This document shows, one piece after another, positions 9,401-23,949 of a stretch of 64,000 bases of DNA; the stretch's first letter is position 1; each line of letters opens with the position of its first letter. Location of the stretch: the NCBI GenBank assembly GCA_949710005.1, contig OX453273.1:38613038-38677037 (forward strand), read 5' to 3'. The stretch comes from Ricordea florida. Taxonomy: Eukaryota > Cnidaria > Anthozoa > Corallimorpharia > Ricordeidae. Below the pieces are notes generated by a model, which was not told the DNA's origin, searched no databases, and saw only the letters and a list, made by a program, of their open reading frames with translations. A program made the position numbers and the translations under genes.

Positions 9401-12400
9401 AACTTACTTTTAATATCAGAAGATGAAAATAACCACTATTGTTGGATAAAGAATATGAGTAGATTGTTAGCCGCAAAAGTTAGTAAACACAAATCTAAGA
9501 TGTACTTTTGCCCTAGATGTTTAAACGCATTTCAGTCAGAAAAATCATTGGAAAAACATCTAGAATACTGCAGTACAAATAAAGAAGTTAAGATTGAAAT
9601 GCCAAAAGATGATGATGGAAATCCAAAGTATACTAAATTCAATAATTATAATAGAAAAATGCGAGTGCCATTTGTTGTATACGCGGACTTTGAGTGTTAT
9701 CCAGAGAAAATACATACCTGCTCACCAAATGAAAGAGAAAGTTATACTAATCAATATCAGAAACATAAAGCATCAGGATTCAGCTATCTAATAAAGTCTT
9801 TTGATGATAAAATATTTCCGCCCAAGCTTGTAAGATATACCGCCAAATCCCCAGATGATGATATCACGCAGATATTTATAGAAAATTTGGAGAAAGATAT
9901 TAAGGAAATTTATAATAAGATAAAATATCATAAGAAGACGGAGGATATGACAGAAATGGATAAAAAAGAATATGAAAATGCTACTCACTGCCATATATGT
10001 GAAGAAAAATTAGGGGGAGATAAGGTATTAGATCATTGCCACCTTACAGGAAAGTATAGAGGAGCGGCTCATAATGAATGTAATTTAAATTATAAGATAC
10101 CGAAATTCTTCCCGGTAATATTTCATAATCTATCTGGATATGATGCGCATATTTTTATCAAGAATCTTGGTGTAACAGAAGGTAAAATAAACTGCATACC
10201 AAATAATGAGGAAAAGTATATTTCTTTCACAAAGCAGATTGTGGTTGATGAATTTGTAAATAAAGAAGGTAAGCAGATTGAGGTGAAACGCGATATTAGA
10301 TTCATAGATTCATTTAAATTTATGGCGTCAAGTCTAGATAAATTAGTAACTAATCTACCAAAAGAATCTTTCAAAAACTTAAATATTTTCTGTAAAGGCG
10401 AAGAATTAAAGTTATTGCTGAGAAAGGGCGTATTTCCATATGATTGGTTTGATGGATTAGATAAACTAAGTACAAACCAACTTCCGCCAAAGGATGCATT
10501 TTATTCAATACTAAACGATGAAAATATAACAGATAATGATTATAAACACGCACAAAATGTTTGGAAAACTTTTAATATGAAAACTATGAGGGAATATCAT
10601 AACTTATATCTTATGTCAGATGTATTACTTTTAGCCGATGTATTCGAGAATTTTAGGGATGTTTGTATTAAAAACTATGGATTAGATCCTGCGCATTATT
10701 ATACTGCTCCCGGACTAGCTTGGGATGCTGCATTAAAAATAACAAAAGTAAATTTAGAGTTGCTAACTGACATAGATATGCTGCTTATGATTGAGAAAGG
10801 TATTCGGGGCGGTGTATCTATGATTTCTACTAGATATGGGAAAGCAAACAACCCATACATGAAAAACTTTGATATTAACAAAATAATAAGTTATATTATA
10901 TATCTCGACGCAAATAATTTATATGGCGGCGGAATGAGTAACCCGCTACCTACTCACGGTTTTAGATGGATGACTGATAAAGATTTTTCAGACTGGGAAA
11001 ATATACCATGTATATTAGAGGTTGATTTAGAATACTCAAATAACCTGCATGATTTACATAATGATTATCCTCTAGCCCCCGAAAGGCTTGTAGTTAATAA
11101 AGTGGAGAAATTAATCCCAAACCTAAACAATAAGGTAAATTATGTTGCTCATCATGAAACACTAAAACTTTATGAAAGTTTGGGATTAAAAATAACAAAA
11201 ATTCATAGGGGCATTACATTTGAAGAATCGGCTTGGTTAAAACCATACATTGATTTGAATACCAAACTCAGAGCTGAAGCAAAGAATGATTTTGAAAAAG
11301 ATTTCTTCAAGTTAATGAATAATTCTGTGTTTGGTAAAACAATGGAAAACATTAGAAATAGGGTTGACATTAAATTAGTTACAAATAAAAAAGATGCGAA
11401 AAAATTAATAACAAAACCTAACTATCAACATCGCACTATCTTTTGTGAAAATCTTGTAGCTATCCATATGAAGAAAAAAAAGTTAGTATTCAATAAACCT
11501 GTTTATTTAGGCATGTGTATTCTAGATCTAAGTAAAACAACAATGTATGATTTTCATTATAATTATATAAAACCAAAATATGAGGAAAAAGCAAAATTGT
11601 TGTTTACAGACACAGACAGTCTTGTTTATGATATAGAAACAGATGATTTCTATAAAGATATAAGCCCAGATGTAAAGTATAAGTTTGACACAAGCAACTT
11701 TACAAAAAATCATCCGTCAGGTATTAAGACTGATGTGAATAAGAAAGTAATAAATATGTTTAAGGATGAAGCCGGGGGCGAACAGATAACCGAATTTGTC
11801 GGTCTACGAGCAAAGCTATACTCATATAGGATGGATAATGAAGAAGAGATAAAAAAGGATAAAGGGGTAAAGACATCAGTAGTAAAAAAGACCATAAACT
11901 TTGATGATTATAAGAGATGTCTATTTAATAAAGAACCCCAGATGAGAAAGATGAATGTAATAAGAAGCCGTTTACATGATATTTATTCTGAAACGGTTAA
12001 TAAAGTTGCACTATCTGCCGATGATGATAAGAGAATAATTTGTGAGGATGGAATAAATACTTTTGCATATGGGCATTATCGTTTCAAAACAGAATCTGGC
12101 GGAAGTTCTGTATCATAAGGAATAACCTGTAATTCTTCCCTTACAAATCCCCTACTAGGCCCATCAATTAAATAATATAAAACTGGCTGATTGGGCGAAA
12201 CCACGCCCCTGGAAATATAATAAACTTTGGGACTCCAAATAGGATCTGTTGCCCTTATTTTTTCTCCACCCTCAAGTTCACCCGGAGATAATAAATATCT
12301 AACTTTAACACTAGGAGGTAATCTAGCCTCGTCAAGCCCTACCTCTCGCTGATAATTTTTAGGTTCAAAATCGAGTTCTTTCATTTTTATAGCCTCATCA

Positions 12401-15400
12401 GGCTCTTTACCGGTTATTCTAGTTTTTGTATTATTTAAAGTTTTTAGAATAGCTGGTAATCTTTTCACCCATACTCTAGATCTGGTATCACTAATCATTT
12501 CTTGCGCATATTGATGACTAAATAATCTTTCTCCCAATATTCTGTTTGCGTTTTCCACAAATGCTTGGGCTCTGTGATTACCAGCTTCACTTCTTTGTAT
12601 TCTTACATTATGGTAATTCATGAGTTTACCAACTTTGCCCATAAATTCTTTTCCTGGATCAACCATTAATGTTTTAGGATATTTCAATCTTCTAGAATAT
12701 ATTTTCTTAAAAGCTTCTGATATCTCTCGACTTTCTTTTGAGGTTAATGGCTCTGCATCTTTATATCTCGAGGCGATATCAACCACAACTAACGCATATT
12801 TATATGTTTTTCTTCCAACTCTATCATGCGGTAAAAATAATAAATCTGCTTGGTGAATCTGATTTGGTTTATCCACCATCCAATGCGGTCTAGGTATATA
12901 TTTTGGGGCTGGAAGATAGATTTGCCATATTGCCTGTTTCTGCAACCATTGTTTTGCCACATTTTCACTTACTTTCGCCTTCTCGGCTAATTTAGGAATC
13001 GCGGTATATCCTTTCCAATACCCCTCAGCCGAATAATATATTTTTGGCATCATTTAAAAATTAACAAAGTATTTTATAAATTAAAAATGGTGGAGGAAGA
13101 AAAATTTAGCGAATATCAAATTAATCTTATGAAAAAAATTATTAGAAAAAAAATTCTATATATGGAAGATGGCGATAAAATTTTTAATATTATGATTTTA
13201 ATTCCTGATGCGAGAGAATGTTTATTAAAACATATCGAAAAATTAAAGAATAATAGTGTGAAGGGGTTTAAAGGTTAGACAAAGTATCTTATAAATTACA
13301 ATGACGTCAGAAAAAATTAATCCAAACAGAATTCCACGAGAACCCTTTGGTTTGAAGGCAGAATCAACATTAAATAGAATTACTCTAAACCCATCATCGG
13401 CCAGCCCCGGCGAAACATTATATATAAATATTCCAAAACTTTCTGAGAATTTAGTGATTGTACCTGGAAGCGTATCTCTTCTATTTGATTTAGATGTTGA
13501 GGGTCATGCAAATAATAGATTTGTTAATAATTTAGGGGCTAATCTTGTTTACAGATTAAAAGTTCTTTTTGGAGGTGAAACATTACAAGATACCCAAAGA
13601 TATGATCTATTTCAAACATATCATGATTTATTTTTAACTAAAGAAGAGCGTAAAGATAGATTAAAACAAGGTATTTCTGATGAAAATATTAGAAAACTTA
13701 GAACAAATGCGGGTGATAAGGATGATTCTGATGTAAAAGAAGTAGCCCTTGCAGTAGTACATAATACAAAGTATAGAATACCAATAAATCATCCTATTTT
13801 AAAAGATCATGGGGTTTTTTATCCAAAAGCATTAGAAAATCATTTAATATTTGAGATTACATTAGCCCCTGTTTCTGATATTGTTGTTTATTCTGATACA
13901 ACTAAAACACCATCATATTCGCTCAAAAATTTAGAGTTAGAATATTCATCAATTTCAAGCGAATATTTAGCTAAAGAAGCTAAATCAACTTATCAAATTG
14001 GTAAAGGATTCTTTTATGAAAATGTTACTTTACACAAAACTTTTACATTTTTAACTGGAGCTGATGAAGTTATTAATCAACATGTTAATTTACCTAGAAG
14101 ATCAATGAGCGGAATATTATTTTTGTTTATTGCCCCATATGCCGGTGGTGCAAGAGATTCAGAAAATTTTTTCTATCCTGGAATAACTTCTGTTAATATT
14201 GATGTTGATGGTGTACCAAATAGAATATACTCTAAAGGTATGATTATATCAGATCTTTGGGAATCTGTTAAAAAACGATTCCCAAAAATAGTAAAGTATA
14301 ATGTAAAAGAAGGGGATTTTTATACAAATAAGTTTGCTCTTTGGCTTGATACCAGAACTCACCCAGATAATAATATTCATGGTGGGGGACTAGCTCTAAA
14401 TAATACACATGATGGAGTAAAAATAGAAATTAAAAGGAAAAAAAGTGGCTCATCAAGCTCAGTAGTAATAACTTGTCATATGTTTGTTGTGGCTGATGCA
14501 ATGATGGAAATAATGAATTCAAGTTTGAGATCAATTAAGTACTGAGAATCTAAAAACATAATGTTATGATACAAAAATCATGGAAGATTTACGAGATAAA
14601 ATTCCTTTTCATTGTATAATAACTGGACCAACAAATTGTGGAAAAACAAAGTACCTAATTGAACAACTCCGTGGTCCTTTCCGTAAAGTTTTTGAATATA
14701 TTGTTTTAATTTGTCCAACTTATTCTAAAAATAAAACATATCATAATTTCGCTCGTGGGGACAAGAGATTCTTTGTATTATCACCAGATGCAAGTAATCT
14801 CGATGAGATTAATGAATTGTTAAATGATTGCCAAATTTTATTTTCTGGACTCAATACACTAATAATTTTAGATGATTGCGCTGTATCCACCGATCTGAAG
14901 AAAAGATCTAATAAATTTATAGATTTAGCATTCTCTGGCAGACATCACGGATTATCAATGTGGGTTCTAACCCAGCAATTAACATCAATAGCAAAACCAT
15001 TCCGGGAAAATGTAGCCTGCGTTGTTACTTTCCATAATCCATCGCAGAAAGGTATGAAAATGTTTTTCGAAGATTACGGGGGTGATTTGGATTATGAATT
15101 GGGTAAAAAGTTTGTTCAACTACTTAAAACCGAAAAATATTCTAGGTTATGTTTGAGTTTGCGATACCCATTTAATTGCTATTTAGAGATTCCCGAAGTG
15201 ATTTAACAAATATGACAAACGTTGAAGATTATATTGAAGAAAAGACAGACCAACCGTCGGAAAAAGATGATGAACTTGAAATAAAGCAAGAATCACTTGC
15301 CATTCTCGCAGCGCTCGGAACAACAAAGGAATATTTAGGAGTTGAAATGAGTTTGGGTGATATAAAAAAATTATCAGGAAAAGATGTAGAAAAATATTTT

Positions 15401-18400
15401 AACCGGTATCAGGCGGTAATGGGTAAAAAAATTAATGGAGGATTGGTAGATTCATCCCTACAATTAGTTTCTAAACTTATTTCATATTTAGTTCCGGTTG
15501 ATGATATAGAATCTCTTTGCAATGATTTGAAAAATGATGATTTGGTAAATCGTGAATTAACAAACATTGTAGGACTCTTAGCATTAAAAGCAGGAAGACT
15601 GGCGGCACTTGCTAGCGGGCTATTCCAGGTTGCTAAGCACATAAAATTCAACAAAAATCAACAAGAACCAGCAAATTCTTACACAACTGATCAGGAAACT
15701 AAGCAATCTACTGAAGGTATTGATACAGTATATTAAACAGATCTAAAAACTTATTTACAGCATCTAAATAACAATGTCTGATGAGCAAATTACAGCAGAT
15801 CCCACACCTGAAAATAAAGATACTAAAAAGAGGGAGAAAGATCCTAAAAAAGTCGAAGCTGGTAAGAAATTGGCAGAATATAATAAAAAAGCAAAAGAAG
15901 CATTAGCTAGGGAAATGAAACGCGAAGAAAAAATAAAACAGGAAGAAGAGCAAAATGAAAATACATATAGTGAAGCGAAATCATGGCTACCAGAGTTATC
16001 TTTTACTACTGTTTTATCTGTTGTTGGATTAGGTTTTACAGCATTTGATCTTTTTATGAGATATAAGGAAAAAGCTAGGGTTGAATATTCTAATAGGATA
16101 CCTGATTTATCACAAGTTCCCCAATTACCACAACCAAAAAAGATACCATTTTCTGTAGCCCCAAAATATTTAGGAATGGAATAATTATAAATTATTTTTT
16201 ACTACATAAAGTTATTTAAAAGTTTCTTAATGATGTAGTAAAAAATCATGTCAAGCGAAAATAAACTTGTGAAAACTGTAACTGATTCATCGGTACTTAT
16301 CGGATTAGGGGCTGGAGTTGGATATGTAGCTAAAAAGGTAATGAAAGAATCATTTTTGAATGACCCATCCTCAAATATTACAAATTATGCAAAATGGGTG
16401 GCTGTATTATCCGGAAGTATGTATCTAAAAACTTATTTAGAGGATCAAAAGATTTTACCAAAATAAAATGGCAGCAATAGCGATGATGATTGGTGGGGCT
16501 ATATTGAATGCAACAGCATTTGTTGGAGGAAATTATCTTGCAAAAAGTCTTTCAGGGCATAATGTAGATGCAGAAAAAATACGACACGATAAAGCATTAG
16601 AAAAATATCAAAAAGATTATGCAGAATATCAGGAAAAAAGACAAAAAATGATTGATTGGAAAATGAAGAAAAAAGATGAAAAATATCAAGCATCAAAAAA
16701 TATTTCGACCACAAATCAGGATTTTGAATTGTACTCGCAAATGACCGAACCCAAATTCTCTGATTATTACAAACCAAGCGATGAACAAAAAACGGGAGAA
16801 ATGGTATATGTTGGAGCCGGAATGTTAGGTTTAGGTTATGCAGTTAGTAAATTCTTATGAATTATTATTTGTTATGTAACCAGTAATTTGGTTATATAAC
16901 ATAAGTATATTTATTATTGTTTACAAAATACTCCCATCATCAGAATCTTCATCCATTTCTTCAGCTGCAGATTTACTATCTGAAATAGTTAAACCTCTAA
17001 ATTTTGTTAATCTTTTCATTTCTCTGTTTGGTTCTATAACTGCTTCATAAAGTTTTACTTGGAGAGAAATACGAGCCCCAATAAATATTGATTCAATTTT
17101 TATTACACCTTCTTCAACGCGGCAGCCTTTATTTAATAATTTTAATGGGTCAATTAACTTATCATTTTTAGAGTTATAAAATTTGGTTAAAATTTGGTCT
17201 TGTTTTTTATCCCAAATTAATTTTGCATATAAAGTTGGACCTCTATCTGGAACTCTAGCCATTGAAGATTGCTCCAACTTCCAATATAGAGGATTTAAAC
17301 CTCCTTTTTGTTTTTCAAGCTCATTTCTTTCCAACTCAAATTTACCAATTTTTACTCTATTAGTAAGCAAATGATCGATGCAATTGTCGACTATATCATT
17401 GAATAAATCAATCCATTTTTCCTCTTCAGGCGTTGGTTTACTTCCACTCCATAAACATAAGGGAAATGTATATTCTGTAATTACACCCGTTTGGTTTGTG
17501 TTTGTAGAAACACCAAAAGAATATAAATTACCGGTTGAAATAACAAGTTCCCCTTCTGTTCCATCATCATTTTTTGTAAAAATTTTAATTCTTTTAAATT
17601 CAACCTTTGGTTTACTTCCAGGAATTTCACCAACAATTGGTTTAGAAAAAACCATGCTTACTTTAGGTTTATAAGTATTAATATCTATTAATTGTGTAGT
17701 TTCGTTCATCATTTTATTTTTTTATATTTTTTTTAATCCTTTATCAAATTTTAATTTAGTTTTTCAATCTAAAGATTTCTTACTGATGAGTAAAAAAATC
17801 ATGGAAGAGGATATACCATTAGAAGATTTGCCAAAAGGAACTGATGGTGATGAGAACAATGATGAAACAGTTTATTTATCCCCAAACACATCTACATCTG
17901 TTGATCAAGGATATCTTGGTTACTCCGAATATATGGAAGAAAGAAAACGACTTCAATGGGAAATAAAAGATGAAGAGAAAAAAACACCAAATATTGAAGA
18001 AAGAGATGAGAAATATGACAGAAGGCGAGAAGCGGGCCAAGAACTCAAACGTTATTTACCAACTTTCAATCCTAATGATGCGACATTTAATGTAACATAT
18101 GGAGAAGATGGTAGTATATTAGCAGAATTTAGTAATAGGAAGGGTTCTGCACCACATCTCATACTTACTAAAGATAAAGTTCTTATGCTTGAAGATTTAC
18201 CAAAAACAATGAGAAAAGCTCTAGGTGCAGATTATGAAACAATGTTAGATAAATATAATGATGCCATATCACAATTTAATGAAGAAAAACAAAAACATAA
18301 TGAATTACTTTCTGCAGTACAAGGAATAGATTCACTTTTAGCAACAAGAACGGAGGAAATTGGTGGATATGAGAAAAGAGAAAAAGAACTTAAGAAATTC

Positions 18401-21400
18401 ATTGAGAAACAACAGGTAGAAAAAGCAGAAAATAAAAGTCTTTTTGATCAAACCGCTGAACAGAATATAGAATTAAAAATACAAGCAGAGAGACTTTTTG
18501 AAGAACTAAAATTATGCAAAGAGGAAATAGACAAAAATAAGAAGGGAAAATCAAATTTAACAAAGTTAGAACAAAGCAAAGAAAGATTAAAAGCTGAGAA
18601 TGATAAATTAAAAGAACAACTTAGAAATAAAGTAATTTCAGACAAAGAACAATTATCAGATATTGAGGGTCGAAAAGATGAAATACTTAAAAATTTGCCA
18701 TTGCGAGAGCGGATAAAGTATATATTCAAAAAGTATGGTTTTACAGTTTTTGCTGTTCTAAGTTCTGTGGGTGTCATCATTGGGGTTATAGTTTCTAATC
18801 TTTCTAAAGGTTTATCAACATTAGGAAGAGGTGTGGGGAATGGTTTGAAAACTCTTGGTAAAAAACTGGGTGAAATATTACCAGGAATGGTTGGTGCAAT
18901 AGTGAGCTTTCTATTCAAAACAGCCGGTCAAGTTATTGGATTTTTAGGTGAAAATGCATGGCTTTTAATAATGGCAGTGGTCTTATATTTTGTGGAAAGT
19001 ATAAAAAAGAAGAGAAAGTAGGTCTAAAGATATCATTTTGAGTAGTAAAATACAATATGGAAGAATACAATAGAATTTACCCTGTATTACCTAATAATCC
19101 AGATCCTATTAATTTCAGACTACAAAAATCAAGCGAAGTATTACAAAATCTTGAGAAAGAAATTAAACACTACGAAGAAGTAAGGAAAAAATATAATAGG
19201 GCGAGAGGAATATGTACAAAAATTAGTGTTTCTGGTGGTTTGATTTCAGTTATCCTATCAGCAAGCGGTTTAGGAACCTCTCTCACGGGTTTTGGTGCTA
19301 TTGTTGGTGTGCCTTTGGGTGTTGTAGGTGGTTTTTTTGGTGGGTTGTCTGTTGGATTTGGTTTTGCTTCTAAAAGACTTTCTGGTAAAGTTAGTAAACA
19401 CGAACAAACTGCTGCAATTGCAAAATCAAAATTAAACACCATTAACGATTTAGTTTCAAAAGCTTTGAAAGATAATGTTATATCCGATCAAGAATTTTCT
19501 ATAATTTTAGCGGAATTGGAAAAGTTTCAAAAACTAAAACTTGAAATACGGCAAAAATTTAGGAAAACAGCAGAAAAAAACTTGGATATGTCTGTGATAA
19601 GGAGGGAAGCGCGCGAATATCTATTAAAAGAACTTACCGAAGGGAAAGGACATTAAAAATTTCATATGAGAGAACTGATGTTGGTTGTAATTGTTTTGCG
19701 GGTATTAGAAGAGAGATTAATTAACATCTTATTCTTAATCTAAAGACCGGTTTATTTGAAACACAAAGAATAAGATGTTATTGGATGATTTCAAAAATCG
19801 TTACTCAAACGCGAACCTCAATAAATTTACATTTGTGAATGATTCGTATGGTGGATATATTAAATGGAAAGTTAATGGAATGACTGTAATGTCTTATGAT
19901 GATCCTACTGGAAAAACATGGACCGATGATCTCCCCCCTAATTTGAAAACATTATTATGGAAAGATTTAGGGTTAGAAAATGGTTCCTTTCCAGAAAGTT
20001 TATCATCTACAAAAAACACATATCCAATACCCGGTATTAAATTCGATGAATCTGCAAAAAATGTAACAAAAATGTTAACTATTTTAAATATATATGTTTC
20101 AGATAAAAACAGCTTCATTTCCCCCATGAAAAATGTATTTAAAAATCAGACTGTAGGACTTACTAGCGGTAAAGAAGCTAGAGCTTGGTTGAATAAACCA
20201 AATATTAATCACTGGCCACAACAGTTAAACATGGCAGTTTGGTGTGCAACATCTGGATGCGGTGTAAGTTTAAATGATAGTTTAAATTACCCAAAAGTTA
20301 TTAGAAGTTTTTTTATATTTCACATTTACTTTACAATAAGAAGAATATTATATGAATTATCTGTACCATTACCCGACGAACAAACTTTTTCTTTAAAAAA
20401 TAATCCATACAACAAAAATGCTTATAATCGTTTATGCGCAGAATTTGGGTTAAGCAATAATCAAGATTATAAAGGATTAAATAAACCTTTGGCCGATTTT
20501 AGATGGAAAGGGGGTGCAAACCATGGGGTTGGAGATGTATTCATTGATTATGGAAAAGGATATGTACCACCCGGAAGTGTCCCCGGAAGCGCTAGTGGGC
20601 AAGCTATAGGAGGTGGAAATCAAGATGTCAGAATTGTAAGGGGTTATGATAAAGAAGCTAATATATGGCCAAGCAGCGCAAATAGATTTTCCGATGATGG
20701 TGGTAAAAAAATAGATGGGAATTTAATATCCATGCTTCGAAATGATTATTTTGTTGATTTTCAATATTCATGGTTTATACCAGAATCTGGATATGGATTA
20801 ACAAATACTGGATTAGGGAGAATAAATAGATCGGTTGAGGCTTTTGTTTATTGCATTTTGGGGGCCCAAGTTAATACTAGGAATTCAATTATTGGTAATG
20901 GGGGGAGAGCATTTGAAACCCAGCAAGAATTTATAGATTTATTTGAAAGCTCTGTGATTGAAAATGATATCGCAAATTCAAATCAAAGATATCAAATGGC
21001 GGTTCAAGAATCAAAAGTACGGCTTGATTTGGCTATAGCTCCTGATGTTTTGTTGATGCCAAGCAATTTAATTATAAATACAGAAAGCGTTATTGGATAC
21101 AATAATAATCTGAAAATAGCAACAGAAGATATGAAATTTGGGGTAAATAATTCAATAAATGTTGGAACAAAAAATGTAGGAATAACTCATAATTTAGGAA
21201 CATCAAAAATTTTATTAAATACAAATCCTCAACCAAGGAAACCAAAAAAACCAAATAACGATGAATCAGAAAAAACAGATGAAGTTAGTAATATAGAAAC
21301 ATCTTCTCATCAAAATAATCTTATTGTTTTAATATTTGCCGGAGGATTATTATCTTGGTTTTTATTTCGATAAAAATTAATCTAAACATATACCTTCAAA

Positions 21401-23949
21401 ATGAAAAATGTTTAGCATTACAATGTATGATTCTGAAACGCGGGTTTATTTAGACCCCCCAATGAAATACGTTAGTGAATTACAACTTTTAGATTGTAAT
21501 ATTAAAACAAAAAGACTAATAACTTTAAAGAATCAAGAAAAAATAACCGATGAACAAGATAAGCCTTTAGTAATATTTAATCCAGGAACATATTCCATAA
21601 ATGATAAAAAAATATTAATTGAGCTCAGCGAAAAGGGTAAAAATATAGCAATGATTATCGGTGATAATTTTACTTACATAATCAACAATAAAACAATTAA
21701 CATTAAATTTACCCAGGGTTTGCAAAATTCTTTGGGGGTGCCAGAGGTTTTATTTAAAATAACTCAAATAGATATAACTATAAAAGAACCTTTGAGACTT
21801 TTATGCAGTATAGTTGATAATAGAATGTCATACACGAATAAAGGTAAAAATGTAAAAATACAGCCATCCCAATTACTAGCAAACATTCCGTCAAAAGATT
21901 ATCCAACAAGTCCTGTTCGAAAATATGATAACTTTATTAATCACTTTGATTTAACCATTTTAGACTCTGATTGGAAAAAATTTGATCTAAAAGGGCAATC
22001 TATAACTTTTAGTTTAAGATTCACATAAATTTTTGTTATGTAACCATTTATTGGGTTATATAACATAATTATATAATATTAATCTTCTTCACCCCATAGT
22101 TTTTTCAAATATCTTAACTCTTCAACATCAGTGCACCAATCTAAATATCTAGATGGATGCCATGCTACAGCCATTAATTCATCATACAAGTTTTTATAGA
22201 ATTTATTTTTATGATTTATTTTATCTTCATTTACATATATAACAACATCTATTTTTTTAACGATAAACTTGTTATCAAAATTATTAATATTACATTCCTT
22301 ATCATAATAACCAAAAAATATATTATCCTCACCAAAATATTCTAACAATTCTTCATAATTTTCATTAGCGCAATTTAATAAATCTTTTAAAAACTTATCA
22401 ACATATATACCATTAACACCAAAATTTATATCGGGTTCAAAAATAATAGAATGATAAACATTATATTCATCATCATCGCCATCATTATCATCATAATAAA
22501 TTTCAAAATAAATATATCTATTTATTTCATCAATAAAACCGCGATATTTTGATATATTTTTTAACAAATCTTTATTTATTGAATCTATAAATTCACGAAT
22601 AAGAAAACCTTTTTCATTAAAAAACTTTAAATAAAGTTCGCCGTCTTCCATTTTATTTGCAATCTTTTCTAATCCTTAATCATAAATTAATTTTATATTG
22701 TTATGTAACACTTATTTGCGTTATATAACATAATTTTTTATTATTCATCTTATTTTTCGCACACTTCACAAAACCATCTTTGTTTTCCATGAATACATAT
22801 TCCTCTCCCATCGCATTCTTTACATTGATACCTCCTCCGTTTATGCTCACAAATACTACCACCATCACATTCAATACAACGCGATTTCTGTTTTTTGTGT
22901 TCACATATTTGTGATCCTTCACATGGCATACAGTAATATTTTATTTTACCATGAATACACTTATTAGTTTTCGGTTGTTTTATATATTCGATTGCGGCAT
23001 TTTCTAAAGATTCAATAAGTTGTTCTCTACGCAACCAATAATATCTCGGTATCCCCCGCTCTTTAGCGAGAAGTTTAAGTTCTTTCACGTTTTTCTGTTC
23101 CATCTTTATCAAATCATTTTAGTCCTTTAAATCTATTTTAGAATTCATTTTTTTTTAATAAAATCTCTGATAAAATTAGGCTAAACCTAAATTGTCTTGG
23201 AACCCGAAATCATTTTTATATAAAAATCTTTATCAAAATTAGTATAAACGCAAATTACGCTCGTTGATGAAATCACTAACAAAATCTTTGTCAAAATTAG
23301 CTTACAACCTAAATTGTCCTGGAAGCCCGCATCGCCAGCTCGGTTTCAATTTCACATAGGCTTGATATCAACTTGGTATCAGCTTGGCGGCAACCTGCCC
23401 ACACTATTCATTGATTATCAGAAACTTAACAATATCACAGAAAGTGCCCGCCCACCCACCCAAACAACCGACATGTACTTTGTTAAATCTTTGATCAACT
23501 CCGTGTCAATTTCACATAGGCTTGGTATCGACTTTGCATCGACTTGATGACAGCCTGCCCACACTATTTATTGATTGTTAAAAACTTAACAATATCACAA
23601 AAAGTGCCCGCCCGCCCACCCAAACAACCGACATGTACTTTGTTAAATTTTTTATTATATAATAAAATGTTTCAAATCCTCATCAATTTCACATAGGCTT
23701 GATATTACCATCAAAATCTCTATCAAAATTAGCTCAAAAGCTAAATTGTCTTGGTACCCGCCTTTTTCACCTACTGCTCAAAAGAGAAGGCAAGGCCACA
23801 GAGCTCACCTCAGGTTCTCCTGCGACTATCATATGTTCTCCACAAAACTTTCTTCCTTCTCCTACTGTCATTTTACAGTAACGGTTCTTGCGCTTCAAGA
23901 AAAATGCGCATGACTTCCTTTCCACTTGCTTTTCCTCTTCGTCCGCCAT
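500..23949 (-). CDS. TRMT13: tRNA:m4X 2'-O-methyltransferase TRM13 homologue (5' part, nine exons)
   Basis: Methylates the 2'-O of nucleotide 4 in some tRNAs using S-adenosylmethionine (family knowledge). Coding exons, in transcription order: 23949-23809, 7390-7347, 6612-6546, 5110-5048, 4950-4881, 4457-4351, 2459-2381, 1457-1366, 578-500. All junctions are GT-AG and keep one frame (742 nt). Exon 1 gives the N-terminal CCCH zinc motif (C14, C25, C36, H39) and exon 2 the CPLD stretch. Exon 3 supplies the FEDQLKRHLKKCN segment, exon 6 ends in RHLKQQ, and exons 7-8 join to the SAM-binding LEFGAGRGKLSHW. The remaining exons lie beyond the left edge. Intron 1 holds the 16.26-kb Polinton; without it that intron would be only about 150 bp. 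No stop or frameshift was seen in the exons read. Confidence 0.88.
1042..1075. repeat. Solo end of a MITE (GTTCATT family)
   Basis: Contains a diverged form of the terminal sequence seen intact at the right end of the 40248-40567 repeat (CCCTCGTAAAAAATGAACG), beside C-rich tracts at 860-1030. Probably a decayed copy of that family. Confidence 0.4.
1531..1830 (+). repeat. tRNA-derived SINE, near full length
   Basis: The tRNA-like head has an A-box-like TAGTGTAGTGGTTAG and a B-box-like GGAGTTCGAGCCC. It is followed by a body that recurs at 32000-32300 (the CTCCACCCAGGTGTATAAATG stretch). It lies in TRMT13 intron 7, opposite in strand to the gene. Confidence 0.75.
2132..2215. repeat. Fragment of an inverted-repeat MITE
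   Basis: Matches one arm of the palindromic repeat at 55917-56045 (CTACAGCATGCATAATGAAG followed by TAGGGACC). A shorter, more diverged copy lies at about 7085-7125. Confidence 0.5.
2518..3550. repeat. Decayed DNA-transposon segments rich in CTCGAAC
   Basis: Repeated TATCTCGAA / TCGAACT segments in both orientations look like degraded terminal repeats of a pogo- or mariner-type element. No transposase frame was seen. Boundaries are approximate. Confidence 0.3.
3152..3294. repeat. Inverted-repeat MITE (CTGGGCAACT family)
   Basis: The two arms of about 45 bp are near-perfect reverse complements, beginning GGATCAATGTAAGCATCTGG and ending CCAGATACTGACATTGATCC. It could fold into one long hairpin. 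Confidence 0.7.
4620..4810. repeat. Imperfect TGAC/GACT tetranucleotide microsatellite
   Basis: Runs of TGACTGACTGAC interrupted by ATTAACTGA-type units, within TRMT13 intron 5-6 sequence. Confidence 0.7.
5558..5665. repeat. Short inverted-repeat MITE in TRMT13 intron 3
   Basis: GTAAGTTACGTACC...GGATTTATGGCC is mirrored by GGCCATAAATCC...GTAACTTAC, forming an imperfect hairpin. Confidence 0.5.
7509..7514. repeat. Target-site duplication, left copy (GCTCAA)
   Basis: Identical to 23776-23781. If the element starts with AG as on the right, one A of an AAA run has been lost at this junction. Confidence 0.85.
7515..8291 (+). repeat. Polinton left terminal inverted repeat
   Basis: Reverse complement of 22998-23775. 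The outer ~670 bp shows only about one difference in what I compared by eye, while the inner coding 106 bp shows seven. Internal structure: a 160-bp direct repeat (7641-7800 and 7801 to about 7948, both starting ATTTAACAAAGTACATG). There are also degenerate units of the form CAAGACAATTTAGG...AGCTAATTTTGA near 7536, 7970 and 8092. The repeat runs past the PolB start codon, to codon 36. The iterated units may be replication or terminal-protein recognition sites (inference). Confidence 0.9.
8162..8169 (+). promoter_or_regulatory. Candidate early motif AAGGACTA before PolB
   Basis: Starts 24 nt before the PolB ATG, inside the left TIR. Shared as AAGGAYTA with three other genes of this element. 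Confidence 0.45.
8186..12118 (+). CDS. polB: Protein-primed DNA polymerase B with SAP-like head
   Basis: Replicates the element by protein priming (family knowledge). The first ATG gives 1310 aa; an in-frame TTG at 8177 is not needed. Visible parts: SAP-like residues 1-36, encoded in the TIR; a C442/C445/H458/C462 zinc motif; Exo I D501-F-E503. An endonuclease-VII-like zinc insert follows (C602, C605, D616-H-C-H619, TGK, H629, C632). Exo II is H647-N-L-S-G-Y-D653 and Exo III Y808-x3-D812. Polymerase motif A starts at D908 (DANNLYG), motif B at K1042 (NSVFGK from 1046), and motif C is D1142-T-D-S. All catalytic aspartates are present. The long region 40-430 may hold the terminal-protein domain (inference). 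The 3' end overlaps the integrase tail by 43 bp. Confidence 0.96.
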   Translation: MEQKNVKELKLLAKERGIPRYYRLRRAQLIEALENVLTQQGPIFDEPVPEINIPVLKPSQPTFRPISLKKLASKVSNPINKEIKKFTDWILSYIPKPIKKTVNKRVDGLKKKVNRLFKTKNEEALTDLINKNISELTNNKSQKSKRKVNISDSARDELNEKVNRFEPKEQQTALRGYLKTHRIDGKKGYGPKTFINKIKPKVIELINKQKKPIKIKFLFTCKFIKKNPATRQTDENYGYFHSTVETITSSTDLSELFNTMTNHQLEKVEKFQNEGSGWQFYQVEYFDINIDPFEPFVGSSYIELPQKLAVKNAIINVRNENDHECFKWAVTSAVYIKKTHPERKNKEMVENSKNFDWTGIEFPTSLKQIDRFEKQNPYYTINVYGYDNDDVYPLRISKKQKGYLINLLLISEDENNHYCWIKNMSRLLAAKVSKHKSKMYFCPRCLNAFQSEKSLEKHLEYCSTNKEVKIEMPKDDDGNPKYTKFNNYNRKMRVPFVVYADFECYPEKIHTCSPNERESYTNQYQKHKASGFSYLIKSFDDKIFPPKLVRYTAKSPDDDITQIFIENLEKDIKEIYNKIKYHKKTEDMTEMDKKEYENATHCHICEEKLGGDKVLDHCHLTGKYRGAAHNECNLNYKIPKFFPVIFHNLSGYDAHIFIKNLGVTEGKINCIPNNEEKYISFTKQIVVDEFVNKEGKQIEVKRDIRFIDSFKFMASSLDKLVTNLPKESFKNLNIFCKGEELKLLLRKGVFPYDWFDGLDKLSTNQLPPKDAFYSILNDENITDNDYKHAQNVWKTFNMKTMREYHNLYLMSDVLLLADVFENFRDVCIKNYGLDPAHYYTAPGLAWDAALKITKVNLELLTDIDMLLMIEKGIRGGVSMISTRYGKANNPYMKNFDINKIISYIIYLDANNLYGGGMSNPLPTHGFRWMTDKDFSDWENIPCILEVDLEYSNNLHDLHNDYPLAPERLVVNKVEKLIPNLNNKVNYVAHHETLKLYESLGLKITKIHRGITFEESAWLKPYIDLNTKLRAEAKNDFEKDFFKLMNNSVFGKTMENIRNRVDIKLVTNKKDAKKLITKPNYQHRTIFCENLVAIHMKKKKLVFNKPVYLGMCILDLSKTTMYDFHYNYIKPKYEEKAKLLFTDTDSLVYDIETDDFYKDISPDVKYKFDTSNFTKNHPSGIKTDVNKKVINMFKDEAGGEQITEFVGLRAKLYSYRMDNEEEIKKDKGVKTSVVKKTINFDDYKRCLFNKEPQMRKMNVIRSRLHDIYSETVNKVALSADDDKRIICEDGINTFAYGHYRFKTESGGSSVS
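12076..13053 (-). CDS. int: Polinton integrase, retroviral rve type
   Basis: 325 aa DDE integrase that inserts the element with a 6-bp staggered cut. N-terminal helical region 1-50 resembles the integrase zinc/HTH region. Catalytic triad: D70 (in HQADLLFL), D132 (in VDPGKEF) and E167 (in FVENANR), a 35-residue D-E step. The C-terminal ~80 residues (YYISRGVV...GFVREELQVIP) look like the SH3/chromo-like DNA-binding part of Polinton integrases. Two ATG codons are adjacent (13053 and 13050). It is divergent from the 63-aa gene at 13087, leaving only 33 bp between them, and overlaps PolB tail-to-tail. Confidence 0.94.
   Translation of the reverse strand: MMPKIYYSAEGYWKGYTAIPKLAEKAKVSENVAKQWLQKQAIWQIYLPAPKYIPRPHWMVDKPNQIHQADLLFLPHDRVGRKTYKYALVVVDIASRYKDAEPLTSKESREISEAFKKIYSRRLKYPKTLMVDPGKEFMGKVGKLMNYHNVRIQRSEAGNHRAQAFVENANRILGERLFSHQYAQEMISDTRSRVWVKRLPAILKTLNNTKTRITGKEPDEAIKMKELDFEPKNYQREVGLDEARLPPSVKVRYLLSPGELEGGEKIRATDPIWSPKVYYISRGVVSPNQPVLYYLIDGPSRGFVREELQVIPYDTELPPDSVLKR
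13064..13083 (+). promoter_or_regulatory. Shared 20-bp promoter-like element, copy 1
   Basis: ACAAAGTATTTTATAAATTA, 3 nt before the ATG at 13087, with a TATAAA core. Lies in the 33-bp gap shared with the divergent integrase. Confidence 0.5.
13087..13278 (+). CDS. Small basic/acidic helical protein, unknown
   Basis: 63 aa, rich in K, E and I, predicted largely helical; no motif recognised. Kept because it has its own promoter-like 20-mer (13064-13083), nearly identical to the one before the capsid gene 215 bp downstream. It also fills the space between integrase and capsid exactly. Function unknown; a short accessory virion or regulatory protein is possible. Confidence 0.6.
   Translation: MVEEEKFSEYQINLMKKIIRKKILYMEDGDKIFNIMILIPDARECLLKHIEKLKNNSVKGFKG
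13279..13298 (+). promoter_or_regulatory. Shared 20-bp promoter-like element, copy 2
   Basis: ACAAAGTATCTTATAAATTA, 2 nt before the capsid ATG; one base different from the copy at 13064-13083. Confidence 0.5.
13301..14545 (+). CDS. mcp: Probable major capsid protein (double jelly-roll)
   Basis: 414 aa, beta-rich, with no membrane segment. The pattern NNLGANLVYRLKVLFGGETL, then YDLFQTYHDLFLTKEER, then YRIPINHPILKDHGVFYP matches the order I associate with Polinton/adintovirus capsids: N-terminal strand, conserved D(I/L)F...DL(W/F) segment, then a P-rich loop before the first jelly-roll ends. The call rests on that pattern, on beta-strand alternation and on its place just before the packaging ATPase. 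It is somewhat shorter than many Polinton capsids. A search of remote homologues or a predicted fold with two eight-stranded barrels would settle it. Confidence 0.72.
   Translation: MTSEKINPNRIPREPFGLKAESTLNRITLNPSSASPGETLYINIPKLSENLVIVPGSVSLLFDLDVEGHANNRFVNNLGANLVYRLKVLFGGETLQDTQRYDLFQTYHDLFLTKEERKDRLKQGISDENIRKLRTNAGDKDDSDVKEVALAVVHNTKYRIPINHPILKDHGVFYPKALENHLIFEITLAPVSDIVVYSDTTKTPSYSLKNLELEYSSISSEYLAKEAKSTYQIGKGFFYENVTLHKTFTFLTGADEVINQHVNLPRRSMSGILFLFIAPYAGGARDSENFFYPGITSVNIDVDGVPNRIYSKGMIISDLWESVKKRFPKIVKYNVKEGDFYTNKFALWLDTRTHPDNNIHGGGLALNNTHDGVKIEIKRKKSGSSSSVVITCHMFVVADAMMEIMNSSLRSIKY
14549..14556 (+). promoter_or_regulatory. Candidate late motif TCTAAAAA before ATPase
   Basis: TCTA starts 31 nt before the ATG at 14580, flanked by A/T-rich DNA. 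Confidence 0.5.
14580..15206 (+). CDS. Genome-packaging ATPase (A32/FtsK-HerA-like)
   Basis: 208 aa P-loop ATPase expected to drive DNA into the capsid. Walker A is G16-P-T-N-C-G-K-T23; Walker B is L94-I-I-L-D-D99, with the double aspartate typical of this class. A downstream sensor-like TQQ lies at 131-133. Length and motif order fit the compact ATPases of Polintons and virophages. It directly follows the capsid gene, and the next gene starts 5 bp after its stop, so the two may be translated from one transcript. Confidence 0.9.
   Translation: MEDLRDKIPFHCIITGPTNCGKTKYLIEQLRGPFRKVFEYIVLICPTYSKNKTYHNFARGDKRFFVLSPDASNLDEINELLNDCQILFSGLNTLIILDDCAVSTDLKKRSNKFIDLAFSGRHHGLSMWVLTQQLTSIAKPFRENVACVVTFHNPSQKGMKMFFEDYGGDLDYELGKKFVQLLKTEKYSRLCLSLRYPFNCYLEIPEVI
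15212..15736 (+). CDS. Conserved-looking helical protein, unknown
   Basis: 174 aa from the first ATG, 5 bp after the ATPase stop; an upstream in-frame TTG at 15176 would overlap the ATPase and is not favoured. The acidic N-terminus (1-30) is followed by a helical core with LVSKLISYLVPVDDIESL at about 90-107 and an Ala/Leu-rich amphipathic segment (LLALKAGRLAALASGLF). It ends in a polar tail. No catalytic motif and no resemblance to an adenain protease. Possibly a virion core or scaffold protein (guess from position only). Confidence 0.7.
   Translation: MTNVEDYIEEKTDQPSEKDDELEIKQESLAILAALGTTKEYLGVEMSLGDIKKLSGKDVEKYFNRYQAVMGKKINGGLVDSSLQLVSKLISYLVPVDDIESLCNDLKNDDLVNRELTNIVGLLALKAGRLAALASGLFQVAKHIKFNKNQQEPANSYTTDQETKQSTEGIDTVY
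15742..15749 (+). promoter_or_regulatory. Candidate late motif TCTAAAAA before 136-aa gene
   Basis: TCTA starts 32 nt before the ATG at 15774; a second TCTAAA lies at 15763. Confidence 0.5.
15774..16184 (+). CDS. Charged coiled-coil protein with one membrane segment
   Basis: 136 aa. Residues 15-62 are extremely rich in K and E and should form a charged helix. A single hydrophobic segment spans about 75-95 (SFTTVLSVVGLGFTAFDLF). The C-terminal 40 residues are proline-containing and basic. No signal peptide. It begins a run of small membrane proteins, suggesting a virion-associated or membrane-remodelling role (inference). Confidence 0.75.
   Translation: MSDEQITADPTPENKDTKKREKDPKKVEAGKKLAEYNKKAKEALAREMKREEKIKQEEEQNENTYSEAKSWLPELSFTTVLSVVGLGFTAFDLFMRYKEKARVEYSNRIPDLSQVPQLPQPKKIPFSVAPKYLGME
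16194..16246 (+). promoter_or_regulatory. Promoter flanked by 14-bp perfect inverted repeat
   Basis: ATTTTTTACTACAT (16194-16207) and its exact reverse complement (16233-16246) enclose TTTAAAAG (16215), a one-base variant of the TCTAAA motif 33 nt before the ATG at 16248. The right arm ends one base before the ATG. The same design occurs at 19722-19780. Confidence 0.5.
16248..16466 (+). CDS. Small membrane protein, 72 aa
   Basis: Two weakly hydrophobic glycine-containing segments (about 14-27 and 44-60) separated by a short polar loop. No family recognised. The next gene starts one base after its stop, so the pair is likely expressed together. It has its own promoter-like element inside an inverted repeat. 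Confidence 0.7.
   Translation: MSSENKLVKTVTDSSVLIGLGAGVGYVAKKVMKESFLNDPSSNITNYAKWVAVLSGSMYLKTYLEDQKILPK
16468..16860 (+). CDS. Small membrane/coiled-coil protein with PKFSDYYKPS motif
   Basis: 130 aa. Hydrophobic N-terminus 1-28, charged coiled-coil helix 35-75, a conserved-looking motif at 95-111 (PKFSDYYKPSDEQKTGE), then a hydrophobic C-terminus 112-130. From memory, similar small proteins with PxxSDFYxPS near the C-terminus recur in cnidarian predicted proteomes; not verified. Starts one base after the preceding stop. Confidence 0.75.
   Translation: MAAIAMMIGGAILNATAFVGGNYLAKSLSGHNVDAEKIRHDKALEKYQKDYAEYQEKRQKMIDWKMKKKDEKYQASKNISTTNQDFELYSQMTEPKFSDYYKPSDEQKTGEMVYVGAGMLGLGYAVSKFL
16871..16900. 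terminator. 3'-end hairpin between convergent genes
   Basis: GTTATGTAACC pairs with GGTTATATAAC across an 8-nt loop (one G-T pair). It lies between the stop at 16860 (+) and the stop at 16921 (-). Nearly the same hairpin is found at 22035 and 22700. Confidence 0.6.
16921..17712 (-). CDS. Candidate single-stranded DNA-binding protein
   Basis: 263 aa, beta-rich centre, no membrane segment. The strand-rich segment around GPTLYAKLIW (about 155-165), a later GVIKIESIFIGARISLQVKL (about 210-230) and a strongly acidic C-terminal tail (EEMDEDSDDGS) resemble the layout of phage and viral ssDNA-binding proteins. The acidic tail recruits replication partners in those families. It shares the AAGGATTA upstream motif with PolB, which fits a replication role. 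The function is inferred from architecture, not from a named domain. Two ATG codons, 17712 and 17709, are possible starts. Confidence 0.6.
   Translation of the reverse strand: MMNETTQLIDINTYKPKVSMVFSKPIVGEIPGSKPKVEFKRIKIFTKNDDGTEGELVISTGNLYSFGVSTNTNQTGVITEYTFPLCLWSGSKPTPEEEKWIDLFNDIVDNCIDHLLTNRVKIGKFELERNELEKQKGGLNPLYWKLEQSSMARVPDRGPTLYAKLIWDKKQDQILTKFYNSKNDKLIDPLKLLNKGCRVEEGVIKIESIFIGARISLQVKLYEAVIEPNREMKRLTKFRGLTISDSKSAAEEMDEDSDDGSIL
17734..17741 (-). promoter_or_regulatory. Candidate early motif AAGGATTA before ssDNA-binding gene
   Basis: Starts 29 nt before the ATG at 17712, followed by an A-rich run. Confidence 0.45.
17768..17775 (+). promoter_or_regulatory. Candidate late motif TCTAAAGA; decides the 17801 start
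   Basis: TCTA is 33 nt before the ATG at 17801 but only 18 nt before the in-frame ATG at 17786. The usual spacing in this element favours 17801. Confidence 0.5.
17801..19021 (+). CDS. Long coiled-coil protein with C-terminal membrane segments
   Basis: 406 aa from 17801 (411 from 17786). The TCTAAA spacing and the similarity of the leader to that of the 16248 gene favour the later ATG. An acidic disordered N-terminus is followed by a small beta-like region (about 85-130) and a long coiled coil (about 140-290). The hydrophobic C-terminus has segments near 315-334, 362-383 and 386-401, separated by a glycine/lysine stretch (GNGLKTLGKKLGEILPG), and a basic tail. From memory, similar C-termini occur in cnidarian hypothetical proteins. 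It may be a membrane-anchored tether or virion protein; function unknown. Confidence 0.8.
   Translation: MEEDIPLEDLPKGTDGDENNDETVYLSPNTSTSVDQGYLGYSEYMEERKRLQWEIKDEEKKTPNIEERDEKYDRRREAGQELKRYLPTFNPNDATFNVTYGEDGSILAEFSNRKGSAPHLILTKDKVLMLEDLPKTMRKALGADYETMLDKYNDAISQFNEEKQKHNELLSAVQGIDSLLATRTEEIGGYEKREKELKKFIEKQQVEKAENKSLFDQTAEQNIELKIQAERLFEELKLCKEEIDKNKKGKSNLTKLEQSKERLKAENDKLKEQLRNKVISDKEQLSDIEGRKDEILKNLPLRERIKYIFKKYGFTVFAVLSSVGVIIGVIVSNLSKGLSTLGRGVGNGLKTLGKKLGEILPGMVGAIVSFLFKTAGQVIGFLGENAWLLIMAVVLYFVESIKKKRK
19023..19030 (+). promoter_or_regulatory. Candidate late motif TCTAAAGA before 199-aa gene
   Basis: TCTA starts 34 nt before the ATG at 19057. Confidence 0.5.
19057..19656 (+). CDS. Glycine-rich membrane-hairpin protein
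   Basis: 199 aa. Amphipathic helix 20-50, then one long glycine-rich hydrophobic stretch 56-105 likely to cross the membrane twice, then helical C-terminal 110-185 with alternating charge. No signal peptide or enzyme motif. The helix-hairpin-helix layout is like pore or membrane-lytic proteins, but nothing proves such a role. It follows the coiled-coil gene by 35 bp and has its own TCTAAA motif. Confidence 0.8.
   Translation: MEEYNRIYPVLPNNPDPINFRLQKSSEVLQNLEKEIKHYEEVRKKYNRARGICTKISVSGGLISVILSASGLGTSLTGFGAIVGVPLGVVGGFFGGLSVGFGFASKRLSGKVSKHEQTAAIAKSKLNTINDLVSKALKDNVISDQEFSIILAELEKFQKLKLEIRQKFRKTAEKNLDMSVIRREAREYLLKELTEGKGH
19722..19780 (+). promoter_or_regulatory. Late motif flanked by 15-bp perfect inverted repeat
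   Basis: TAACATCTTATTCTT (19722-19736) and its exact reverse complement (19766-19780) enclose TCTAAAGA (19739). The right arm contains the ATG at 19775, so the start codon sits in the symmetric site. It could be an operator or an RNA structure. Confidence 0.5.
19775..21373 (+). CDS. Tail-anchored virion-type protein, unknown
   Basis: 532 aa with no N-terminal signal peptide and a single hydrophobic segment at the extreme C-terminus (about 514-531), so it would be tail-anchored. It has a tryptophan- and glycine-rich middle (ARAWLNKPNINHWPQQLNMA near 155-170), then an asparagine-rich, repetitive beta-like region (about 440-485) and a proline/lysine linker before the anchor. Size and position suggest a surface or vertex protein (inference). 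It does not look like a class I fusion protein, and no fusion peptide or cleavage site was seen. Confidence 0.8.
   Translation: MLLDDFKNRYSNANLNKFTFVNDSYGGYIKWKVNGMTVMSYDDPTGKTWTDDLPPNLKTLLWKDLGLENGSFPESLSSTKNTYPIPGIKFDESAKNVTKMLTILNIYVSDKNSFISPMKNVFKNQTVGLTSGKEARAWLNKPNINHWPQQLNMAVWCATSGCGVSLNDSLNYPKVIRSFFIFHIYFTIRRILYELSVPLPDEQTFSLKNNPYNKNAYNRLCAEFGLSNNQDYKGLNKPLADFRWKGGANHGVGDVFIDYGKGYVPPGSVPGSASGQAIGGGNQDVRIVRGYDKEANIWPSSANRFSDDGGKKIDGNLISMLRNDYFVDFQYSWFIPESGYGLTNTGLGRINRSVEAFVYCILGAQVNTRNSIIGNGGRAFETQQEFIDLFESSVIENDIANSNQRYQMAVQESKVRLDLAIAPDVLLMPSNLIINTESVIGYNNNLKIATEDMKFGVNNSINVGTKNVGITHNLGTSKILLNTNPQPRKPKKPNNDESEKTDEVSNIETSSHQNNLIVLIFAGGLLSWFLFR
21381..21386 (+). promoter_or_regulatory. 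Candidate late motif TCTAAA before minor-capsid candidate
   Basis: TCTA starts 27 nt before the ATG at 21408. An ATG at 21401 opens only a four-codon frame. Confidence 0.45.
21408..22028 (+). CDS. Candidate minor capsid (penton-like) protein
   Basis: 206 aa, almost all beta-strand, no membrane segment. The ending, FDLTILDSDWKKFDLKGQSI then TFSLRF, is the pattern (strand, D-x-x-W-x-x-hydrophobic, final strand) I associate with penton-like proteins of Polintons and related viruses. It is the last plus-strand gene of the virion block. A single jelly-roll in a structure model would support the call; without it the protein remains a beta-rich unknown. Confidence 0.6.
   Translation: MFSITMYDSETRVYLDPPMKYVSELQLLDCNIKTKRLITLKNQEKITDEQDKPLVIFNPGTYSINDKKILIELSEKGKNIAMIIGDNFTYIINNKTINIKFTQGLQNSLGVPEVLFKITQIDITIKEPLRLLCSIVDNRMSYTNKGKNVKIQPSQLLANIPSKDYPTSPVRKYDNFINHFDLTILDSDWKKFDLKGQSITFSLRFT
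22035..22064. terminator. 3'-end hairpin between convergent genes, second copy
   Basis: GTTATGTAACC pairs with GGTTATATAAC; the same arms as at 16871-16900. Lies between stops at 22028 (+) and 22079 (-). Confidence 0.6.
22079..22651 (-). CDS. Acidic protein with giant-virus-like C-terminal motif
   Basis: 190 aa, very rich in N, D, E and Y, with an acidic run DDNDGDDDEYN near 75. The C-terminal 35 residues carry AVAWHPSRYLDWC followed by acidic/basic residues. From memory, A-x-HP-x-R-x(3-4)-W at the C-terminus is common in uncharacterised proteins of Mimiviridae and relatives; not verified. It shares AAGGATTA at -26 with the replication genes, so early expression is likely. Function unknown. 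Confidence 0.75.
   Translation of the reverse strand: MEDGELYLKFFNEKGFLIREFIDSINKDLLKNISKYRGFIDEINRYIYFEIYYDDNDGDDDEYNVYHSIIFEPDINFGVNGIYVDKFLKDLLNCANENYEELLEYFGEDNIFFGYYDKECNINNFDNKFIVKKIDVVIYVNEDKINHKNKFYKNLYDELMAVAWHPSRYLDWCTDVEELRYLKKLWGEED
22670..22677 (-). promoter_or_regulatory. Candidate early motif AAGGATTA before acidic gene
   Basis: Starts 26 nt before the ATG at 22651; followed by GAAAAGATT. Confidence 0.45.
22700..22729. terminator. 3'-end hairpin, third copy
   Basis: GTTATGTAAC pairs with GTTATATAAC. Lies just after the stop (3' side) of the minus-strand zinc-repeat gene that ends at 22750. Confidence 0.6.
22750..23103 (-). CDS. SAP-like head plus four C-x-H-C-C zinc repeats
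   Basis: 117 aa from the ATG at 23103. Residues 1-36 repeat the PolB N-terminus with only four substitutions because they are encoded by the TIR. Residues 49-115 hold four exact-period 18-residue units C-x-H-x6-C-x2-C: C49/H51/C58/C61, C67/H69/C76/C79, C85/H87/C94/C97, C103/H105/C112/C115. Similar cysteine-histidine repeats occur in giant-virus and algal proteins (from memory). A DNA- or nucleic-acid-binding early regulator is plausible, and the SAP-like head could recognise the TIR. A hairpin follows its stop. Confidence 0.85.
   Translation of the reverse strand: MEQKNVKELKLLAKERGIPRYYWLRREQLIESLENAAIEYIKQPKTNKCIHGKIKYYCMPCEGSQICEHKKQKSRCIECDGGSICEHKRRRYQCKECDGRGICIHGKQRWFCEVCEK
22998..23775 (-). 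repeat. Polinton right terminal inverted repeat
   Basis: Mirror of the left TIR, including the duplicated 160-bp block and the iterated units. Its inner end encodes the first 36 codons of the minus-strand SAP/zinc-repeat gene. The open frame at 23314-23547 exactly mirrors the one at 7742-7975, which illustrates the identity of the two copies. Confidence 0.9.
23120..23127 (-). promoter_or_regulatory. Candidate early motif AAGGACTA before zinc-repeat gene
   Basis: The right-TIR copy of the PolB promoter motif, 24 nt before the ATG at 23103. Confidence 0.45.
23776..23781. repeat. Target-site duplication, right copy (GCTCAA)
   Basis: Follows the CACCTACT end of the right TIR directly. It lies in TRMT13 intron 1, 27 bases inside the splice donor at 23808/23807. 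Confidence 0.85.

Follow-up and report, generated by a model that had tools for sequence, protein, structure and literature searches.

In the virus-like elements (VLEs) of yeast, a hexamer lies 20–40 nt ahead of each open reading frame (ORF), most genes (12 genes) have TAAAN where transcription starts, and the transcripts are described as monocistronic (PMC6211774). The intermediate promoters of vaccinia virus comprise a core at -26 to -13 and a TAAA at -1 to +3, and are read by the viral polymerase (PMC12917281). MELD viruses combine an adintovirus-like PolB and integrase with pox- or giant-virus-like virion genes, and the main text of the paper describing them does not contain the word promoter (PMC11071296); among the literature matches listed, no title dealt with the promoters of animal Polintons. 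Here, a promoter-like arrangement is described in a Polinton-like element of the corallimorpharian Ricordea florida, located in a 64,000-nt stretch of DNA (GenBank assembly GCA_949710005.1, contig OX453273.1, forward-strand positions 38,613,038 to 38,677,037), which is called the window below and to which all coordinates refer. Most genes of this element (7514..23775, 16,262 bp, without strand assignment) would each have their own core promoter, made of a strict T[C/T]TAAA (TYTAAA) hexamer that is mostly accompanied by an initiator TAAA(A) starting 22–25 nt after its first base. That this is a real, element-wide, two-part promoter is very probable, and a promoter of the type found in nucleocytoplasmic large DNA viruses (NCLDVs) and VLEs is, on the analysis below, somewhat probable; service by a co-infecting virus is quite conceivable, at rather less than even chances.

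The upstream box in the window element

A first-pass annotation of the window had noted TCTAAA beginning 31, 32, 33, 34, 36 and 27 nt ahead of the ATGs at 14580, 15774, 17801, 19057, 19775 and 21408, and TTTAAA 33 nt ahead of gene 16248, and each of these distances is exact. On the forward strand, the box and the downstream element together span 14549..14575 at the ATPase gene (TCTAAA..CAAA, box at -31), 15742..15768 at gene 15774 (TCTAAA..TAAA, -32; TTTAAA in some copies), 16215..16242 at gene 16248 (TTTAAA..TAAA, -33; TCTAAA at the same place in some copies), 17768..17794 at gene 17801 (TCTAAA..TAAA, -33), 19023..19049 at gene 19057 (TCTAAA..TAAA, -34), 19739..19767 at gene 19775 (TCTAAA..CAAA, -36) and 21381..21406 at gene 21408 (TCTAAA..GAAA, -27). 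Further sites of the T form, TTTAAA..TAAA, occur on the same strand ahead of orf63, a small ORF at 13087 (13053..13080, box at -34), the capsid gene at 13301 (13267..13295, -34) and, as scored in the window copy, PolB (8158..8184, box at -28 with TAAA 23 nt past its first base, and an extra TCTAAA at 8147), and on the reverse strand ahead of the zinc-repeat gene (23105..23131, box at -28). The last two genes had been listed as lacking the motif, which is true only if the exact string and distance are required, as their identical leaders, which lie in the terminal repeat, have TCTAAA at -39 and TTTAAA at -28. Gene 16468 has a forward-strand TCTAAA at -44 (16424..16429), within the 16248 coding sequence, and a TATAAA lies at -25 ahead of the integrase gene.

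Within this single element, TCTAAA lies at -38 to -26 in 6 of 15 leaders, compared with a maximum of 4 in 2000 shuffles, and at 4 of 607 other ATGs. Taken alone, this element nevertheless makes only a moderate case for TCTAAA, because some hexamer or other reaches at least six leaders in 117 of 2000 shuffles, A/T runs being recurrent; the zone was moreover picked after inspection of the data, and the copies of the element are the better test. Unguided motif discovery scored the 15 leaders at a likelihood ratio of 42.7 (shuffled leaders, 28.9 ± 2.6), which none of 60 shuffles reached. The motif returned, A-T-Y-T-A-A-A-R, has sites in 12 of the 15 genes, at -28 to -37, and some of these are weak (integrase, 15212).

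Conservation across copies and sister lineages

In the 538-Mb host assembly, 101 capsid protein matches at 94–100% identity were scored from 6171 first-look candidates, the window's own included and three with an internal stop, and a query with a diverged relative found at least 100 places at 61–66% identity to that relative. Leaders were taken from 44 copies, namely 30 capsid-centred loci (the window copy, L002, being one) and 20 late-module stretches, six copies being common to both (L031–L036 correspond to L013, L015, L017, L022, L012 and L011), and each copy contributed some of its genes. Counts refer to distinct leader sequences, and rows with no N-terminal match or no ATG were left out (4 of 20 stretches for gene 17801).

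At -24 to -40, the box is present in every distinct leader of orf63 (16/16), the capsid gene (16/16, always in the T form) and genes 15774 (24/24), 16248 (18/18), 17801 (16/16), 19775 (14/14) and 21408 (11/11), in nearly all of those of gene 19057 (13/14), and in 14/17 for the DUF2738 gene, 14/23 for the ATPase gene (as TCTAAA), 9/32 for gene 15212, 1/18 for the integrase and 0/12 for gene 16468. The integrase had thus been correctly described as lacking the motif; the same statement about the DUF2738 gene, then an ssDNA-binding candidate, is true of the window copy and fails for most distinct leaders, the 14 with the box carrying TTTAAA. In gene 17801 the box is kept in leaders whose 25 nt upstream are just 54–58% alike; the 91–100% identity inside the box in such alignments is partly a matter of construction, since only box-bearing leaders were aligned, and it is the low upstream identity that is informative. 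Some copies of gene 21408 have dissimilar leaders, all with TCTAAA, at -30 to -32.

When leaders were grouped into types by the 23 nt adjoining the ATG, with the motif zone excluded and no gaps allowed (gapped clustering had merged all of them into one group), T[CT]TAAA was found at -26 to -38 in 14 of 18 types, against a mean of 1.5 and a maximum of 8 in 5000 shuffles. Some types of one gene remain related, and looser cuts gave 12/15, then 6/8 and 4/6 with the box; neither the leader types nor the sister leaders discussed below are fully independent. Enrichment over shuffles, which the first-pass annotation had named as a check, is seen for the broader T[C/T]TAAA box, both by motif discovery in the element and in leaders across copies. 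These comparisons also bear on the possibility that the conserved stretch works in RNA, as a trans-splicing acceptor or a translation signal. The tight packing of the genes, mostly on one strand, and the pyrimidine tract and AG found near the ATG in some leaders would agree with such a role, yet several leader types that keep TYTAAA have, by inspection, no AG ahead of the ATG, and types that are otherwise dissimilar keep the box and its distance. A function in RNA is thus regarded as remote, and a trans-splicing acceptor in particular is disfavoured by the inconstant AG.

The comparison extends to two sister modules with capsid genes at 71% and 77% DNA identity to the window's. The box occurs in 15 of 19 sister leaders at -26 to -39 (shuffles: mean 1.4, maximum 6 of 2000) and in 14 of 19 at -26 to -38, the zone having been widened to -39 after one site was observed there. 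These leaders are homologous to those of the window and are therefore evidence of conservation, not of fresh origins. The box reads TTTAAA in 13 of the 15 and TCTAAA in 2, and another ten diverged capsid leaders all have TTTAAA. The window's subfamily favours the TCTAAA variant, whose second-base C is not conserved; copies of the window's family have either C or T at the corresponding site of a single gene (g16248, g15774).

This pattern has consequences for the idea, developed from the first-pass annotation, that the motif is the TCTA late motif of Cafeteria roenbergensis virus (CroV) and mavirus, kept by descent and allowing a CroV-like virus to turn virion genes on late. In its favour, TCTA with A/T flanks stands at most virion genes of the window's subfamily, and TCTA is used by CroV, ChlorV and mavirus-type endogenous mavirus-like elements (EMALEs) according to the accounts cited (PMC5294985, PMC13196603, PMC8547959). 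Mavirus is, in addition, related to Polintons and expressed by a giant virus, and TCTA in A/T-rich surroundings ahead of many genes is common to CroV, mavirus and this element. The element differs in having C or T as second base and a box of the same architecture at PolB, and the CroV/mavirus motif is, in the descriptions at hand, given without a TAAA partner. Since the sister lineages mostly have TTTAAA, the specific link to CroV is removed, and descent from the CroV/mavirus promoter, which the sister lineages already largely refute, is considered very unlikely. TCTAAA as a mark of late genes only was likewise rejected: PolB, orf63, capsid and DUF2738 genes all have the box, in its T form, and second-base C versus T does not split early from late genes.

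A second element at fixed spacing

A second element, TAAA beginning 22–25 nt past the first base of the box, had been overlooked. It is present at this spacing in 78 of 113 distinct segments, against a resampled mean of 17.4 and a maximum of 31 in 500 resamplings. Of the 14 leader types with a box, 9 have it (1.8 on average and at most 7 in 5000 resamplings), as do 14 of the 15 sister leaders with a box. The other five motif-bearing types have CAAA or GAAA at +22 to +25, by a hand count. A scan of the whole element for TYTAAA-N17..18-TAAA returned 8 sites where 2.7 were expected (maximum 7 of 60), and a looser scan for box and TAAA in the element alone was not above chance (19 against 12.0 expected, maximum 21). 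An upstream core followed by TAAA at fixed spacing, as in bipartite promoters of the NCLDV/VLE type, is thus found in most motif-bearing leader types, though not in the ATPase and 21408 leaders. The box lies 27–37 nt from the ATG in 166 distinct leaders, so that a start 24 nt past its first T would leave a leader of 3–13 nt; transcription is accordingly proposed to begin in the A-run of TAAA, with some 3–13 nt up to the ATG.

The spacing and the base composition of the box are both relevant to the main rival explanation, in which the genes are transcribed by host RNA polymerase II, with TYTAAA as a divergent TATA box bound by the host TATA-binding protein and TAAA as an initiator-like sequence or an A-run of translation context. 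The box is one base off TATAAA and lies at a TATA-like location, integrated elements reside in nuclear chromatin, A-rich sequence ahead of an ATG is common, and the TATAAA of the integrase leader would suit such a reading. TATAAA is, however, absent from the promoter zone in all 35 leaders examined (18 types and 17 sister leaders), whereas TYTAAA is present in 27 of them, and among 278 distinct leaders TATAAA is found in the zone in 3 and TYTAAA in 196. This is not a matter of scarcity, as TATAAA is as frequent as TTTAAA in the element (45 TATAAA, 42 TTTAAA and 38 TCTAAA on both strands); its absence from the zone disfavours an ordinary TATA box. The spacing from box to start at polymerase II promoters is about 30 nt. 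At that spacing, the leader length would be zero or less in 43 of the 166 cases, and the 22–25 nt observed between box and TAAA falls short of it. Transcription by polymerase II is therefore judged rather unlikely.

The layout of hexamer, TAAA and predicted 3–13 nt leader fits yeast VLE and vaccinia intermediate promoters better than a polymerase II TATA box, while the hexamer itself differs from both. In the cytoplasmic linear plasmids of the pGKL type, with their upstream conserved sequence (UCS) promoters, a hexamer before ORFs and TAAA are found as in this element, the hexamer being ATNTGA instead of TYTAAA (PMC6211774). In vaccinia intermediate promoters, 25 nt separate the first base of the core from the T of TAAA, compared with 22–25 nt here (PMC12917281). 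Part of the first-pass proposal of a giant-virus-like system therefore stands, namely a promoter-like element at a fixed place across many copies with a layout closer to that of giant viruses than to a TATA box; its identity as a late, TCTA-type signal does not.

The source of the polymerase

The explanation preferred overall, to which about even chances are given, is that the two-part promoters are read by a polymerase of the NCLDV or yeast VLE type that a co-infecting nucleocytoplasmic virus would provide in trans. A helper is proposed because the element has no recognised RNA polymerase gene: none of its scanned proteins matched one, whereas elements of the pGKL type encode their own. The NCLDV-like capsid and ATPase are counted in favour of this explanation. 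The element resembles MELD viruses in its mixture of replication genes and NCLDV-like virion genes, a likeness drawn from their description (PMC11071296). Also in favour of a viral helper, matches to Pox_VLTF3 (PF04947) above the cut-off occur at four loci of the host genome (C15:18661274-18661657, C8:15643102-15643353, C12:7234181-7234453 and C6:16806129-16806344) and in none of 14 control genomes.

Several observations weigh against a helper-read, two-part promoter throughout the element. Two of the VLTF3 matches have stop codons, and the other pair is weak, at 28 bits for a cut-off of 25. These matches could stem from old insertions or from other elements, and they are evidence of viral late-factor-like sequence in the host and not of a present helper. 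The vaccinia core is A/T-rich with no sequence consensus (PMC12917281) and is read by a viral polymerase, whereas the hexamer here is strict and no viral polymerase was recognised in the element. The box is missing from the zone in 17/18 distinct leaders of the integrase, 12/12 of gene 16468, 23/32 of gene 15212 and 9/23 of the ATPase gene, and gene 22651 has none in the window, the start of this gene not having been found in the 20 stretches. CAAA or GAAA replaces TAAA in the segments of the ATPase gene (TAAA in 0/8) and of gene 21408 (0/10).

A strict hexamer would also be expected of a dedicated factor, and the element could in principle be self-sufficient, with a DNA-binding protein of its own, such as the zinc-repeat or DUF2738 product, that binds TYTAAA and recruits the host polymerase. 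Some of its genes have no known function, and the N-terminus of its Cys/His-repeat gene is of the Rho_N type. Against this, the proteins scanned included no recognisable transcription factor, and the spacing of TAAA is like that of initiators read by a polymerase; such self-sufficiency is considered improbable.

The element and its genomic setting

The element is bounded by terminal inverted repeats of 778 nt with 8 mismatches in 778 (left, 7514..8291; right, 22998..23775; neither with strand assignment) and is flanked on both sides by the 5-nt target duplication GCTCA, long terminal repeats and a target duplication being features of Polintons/Mavericks; perfect 6-bp duplications served as a selection criterion for Polinton copies in PMC8097293. 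The left repeat contains the PolB promoter and first codons, and the right one contains the same promoter ahead of the zinc-repeat gene, so that the two genes have promoter and first codons in common (8186-8291 and 22750-23103), the zinc-repeat gene then running on into its Cys/His repeats.

Six stop-free frames of at least 250 aa are found in the element. The rve integrase typical of Polintons/Mavericks is encoded on the reverse strand (12076..13053; PF00665, E 1.5e-8), as is the DUF2738 protein (16921..17712; PF10927, E 5e-54), and a double jelly-roll major capsid protein (13301..14545) and a packaging ATPase (14580..15206; Pox_A32, E 3e-11), a further pair of genes expected in this group, are encoded on the forward strand. 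The capsid protein matched Capsid_N at E 1e-4, just below the cut-off of that profile, and is nearest to NCLDV capsid proteins by E-value. With its structure model (pLDDT 84.6), Foldseek placed the SGIV and PBCV-1 capsids at the top by E-value; the mavirus capsid came 38th, its TM-score being similar. Structural matches in BFVD included many NCLDV capsids, with some top matches unnamed, an adintovirus protein at rank 12 and a MELD virus protein at rank 39. A 1310-aa ORF is the candidate for the protein-primed DNA polymerase B (PolB) of Polintons/Mavericks, given polymerase motifs and the size of the gene; a polymerase match was absent in Pfam, NCBIfam, PHROGs and PDB sequences, and an endonuclease VII match lies inside the ORF. 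A Pfam scan of ORFs of at least 100 aa gave no match to an adenovirus-type cysteine protease, another Polinton/Maverick feature, and several ORFs matched nothing. The structure model of the 19775 protein was unusable (pLDDT 38.6).

The orf63 and capsid leaders (13053-13086 and 13267-13300) are alike over one promoter stretch, and the sequence upstream differs in some copies, as if exchanged by recombination. The 17801 protein drops to 33–50% identity in several of the late-module stretches (L031–L050), where most neighbours are at about 80–99%, as if alternative versions had been exchanged. In the same stretches, identity of the DUF2738 gene to the window copy is bimodal, at about 59–63% in five and 87–97% in the other 13 matched. 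In 9 of the 20 stretches, the interval from the capsid stop to the ATPase start is some 8 nt shorter than in the window, and the capsid stop falls in the ATPase box, which becomes ACTAAA; across the 20 stretches this box reads TCTAAA in 10, ACTAAA in 9 and neither in 1.

The element adjoins a host gene of the TRM13 type (zf-TRM13_CCCH, 23767-24024) and probably lies inside an early intron of it. A short AAATGGAAGTTGAAGTTGTGA-like unit forms dense inverted repeats in the host DNA at 26709-27079. No relatives of the element were confirmed in IMG/VR and GTDB contigs, and an exact match to the extended promoter pattern was absent in IMG/VR.

Implications for Polinton biology

The status of Polintons is debated, with independent viruses, transposons and helper-dependent satellites all under consideration. 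A promoter of two defined parts, spaced as in viruses and avoiding TATAAA, offers a direct and cheap handle on the question of helper-dependence, and is a signature to look for in other Polinton families. As a tentative and rather unlikely suggestion, this family may be a virophage-like satellite, with genes that would stay silent until an NCLDV-type virus infects and its polymerase reads TYTAAA-TAAA. Mavirus is a virus-responsive reserve in a flagellate. If the suggestion is true, the hundreds of copies or more in this corallimorpharian would be such a reserve as well.

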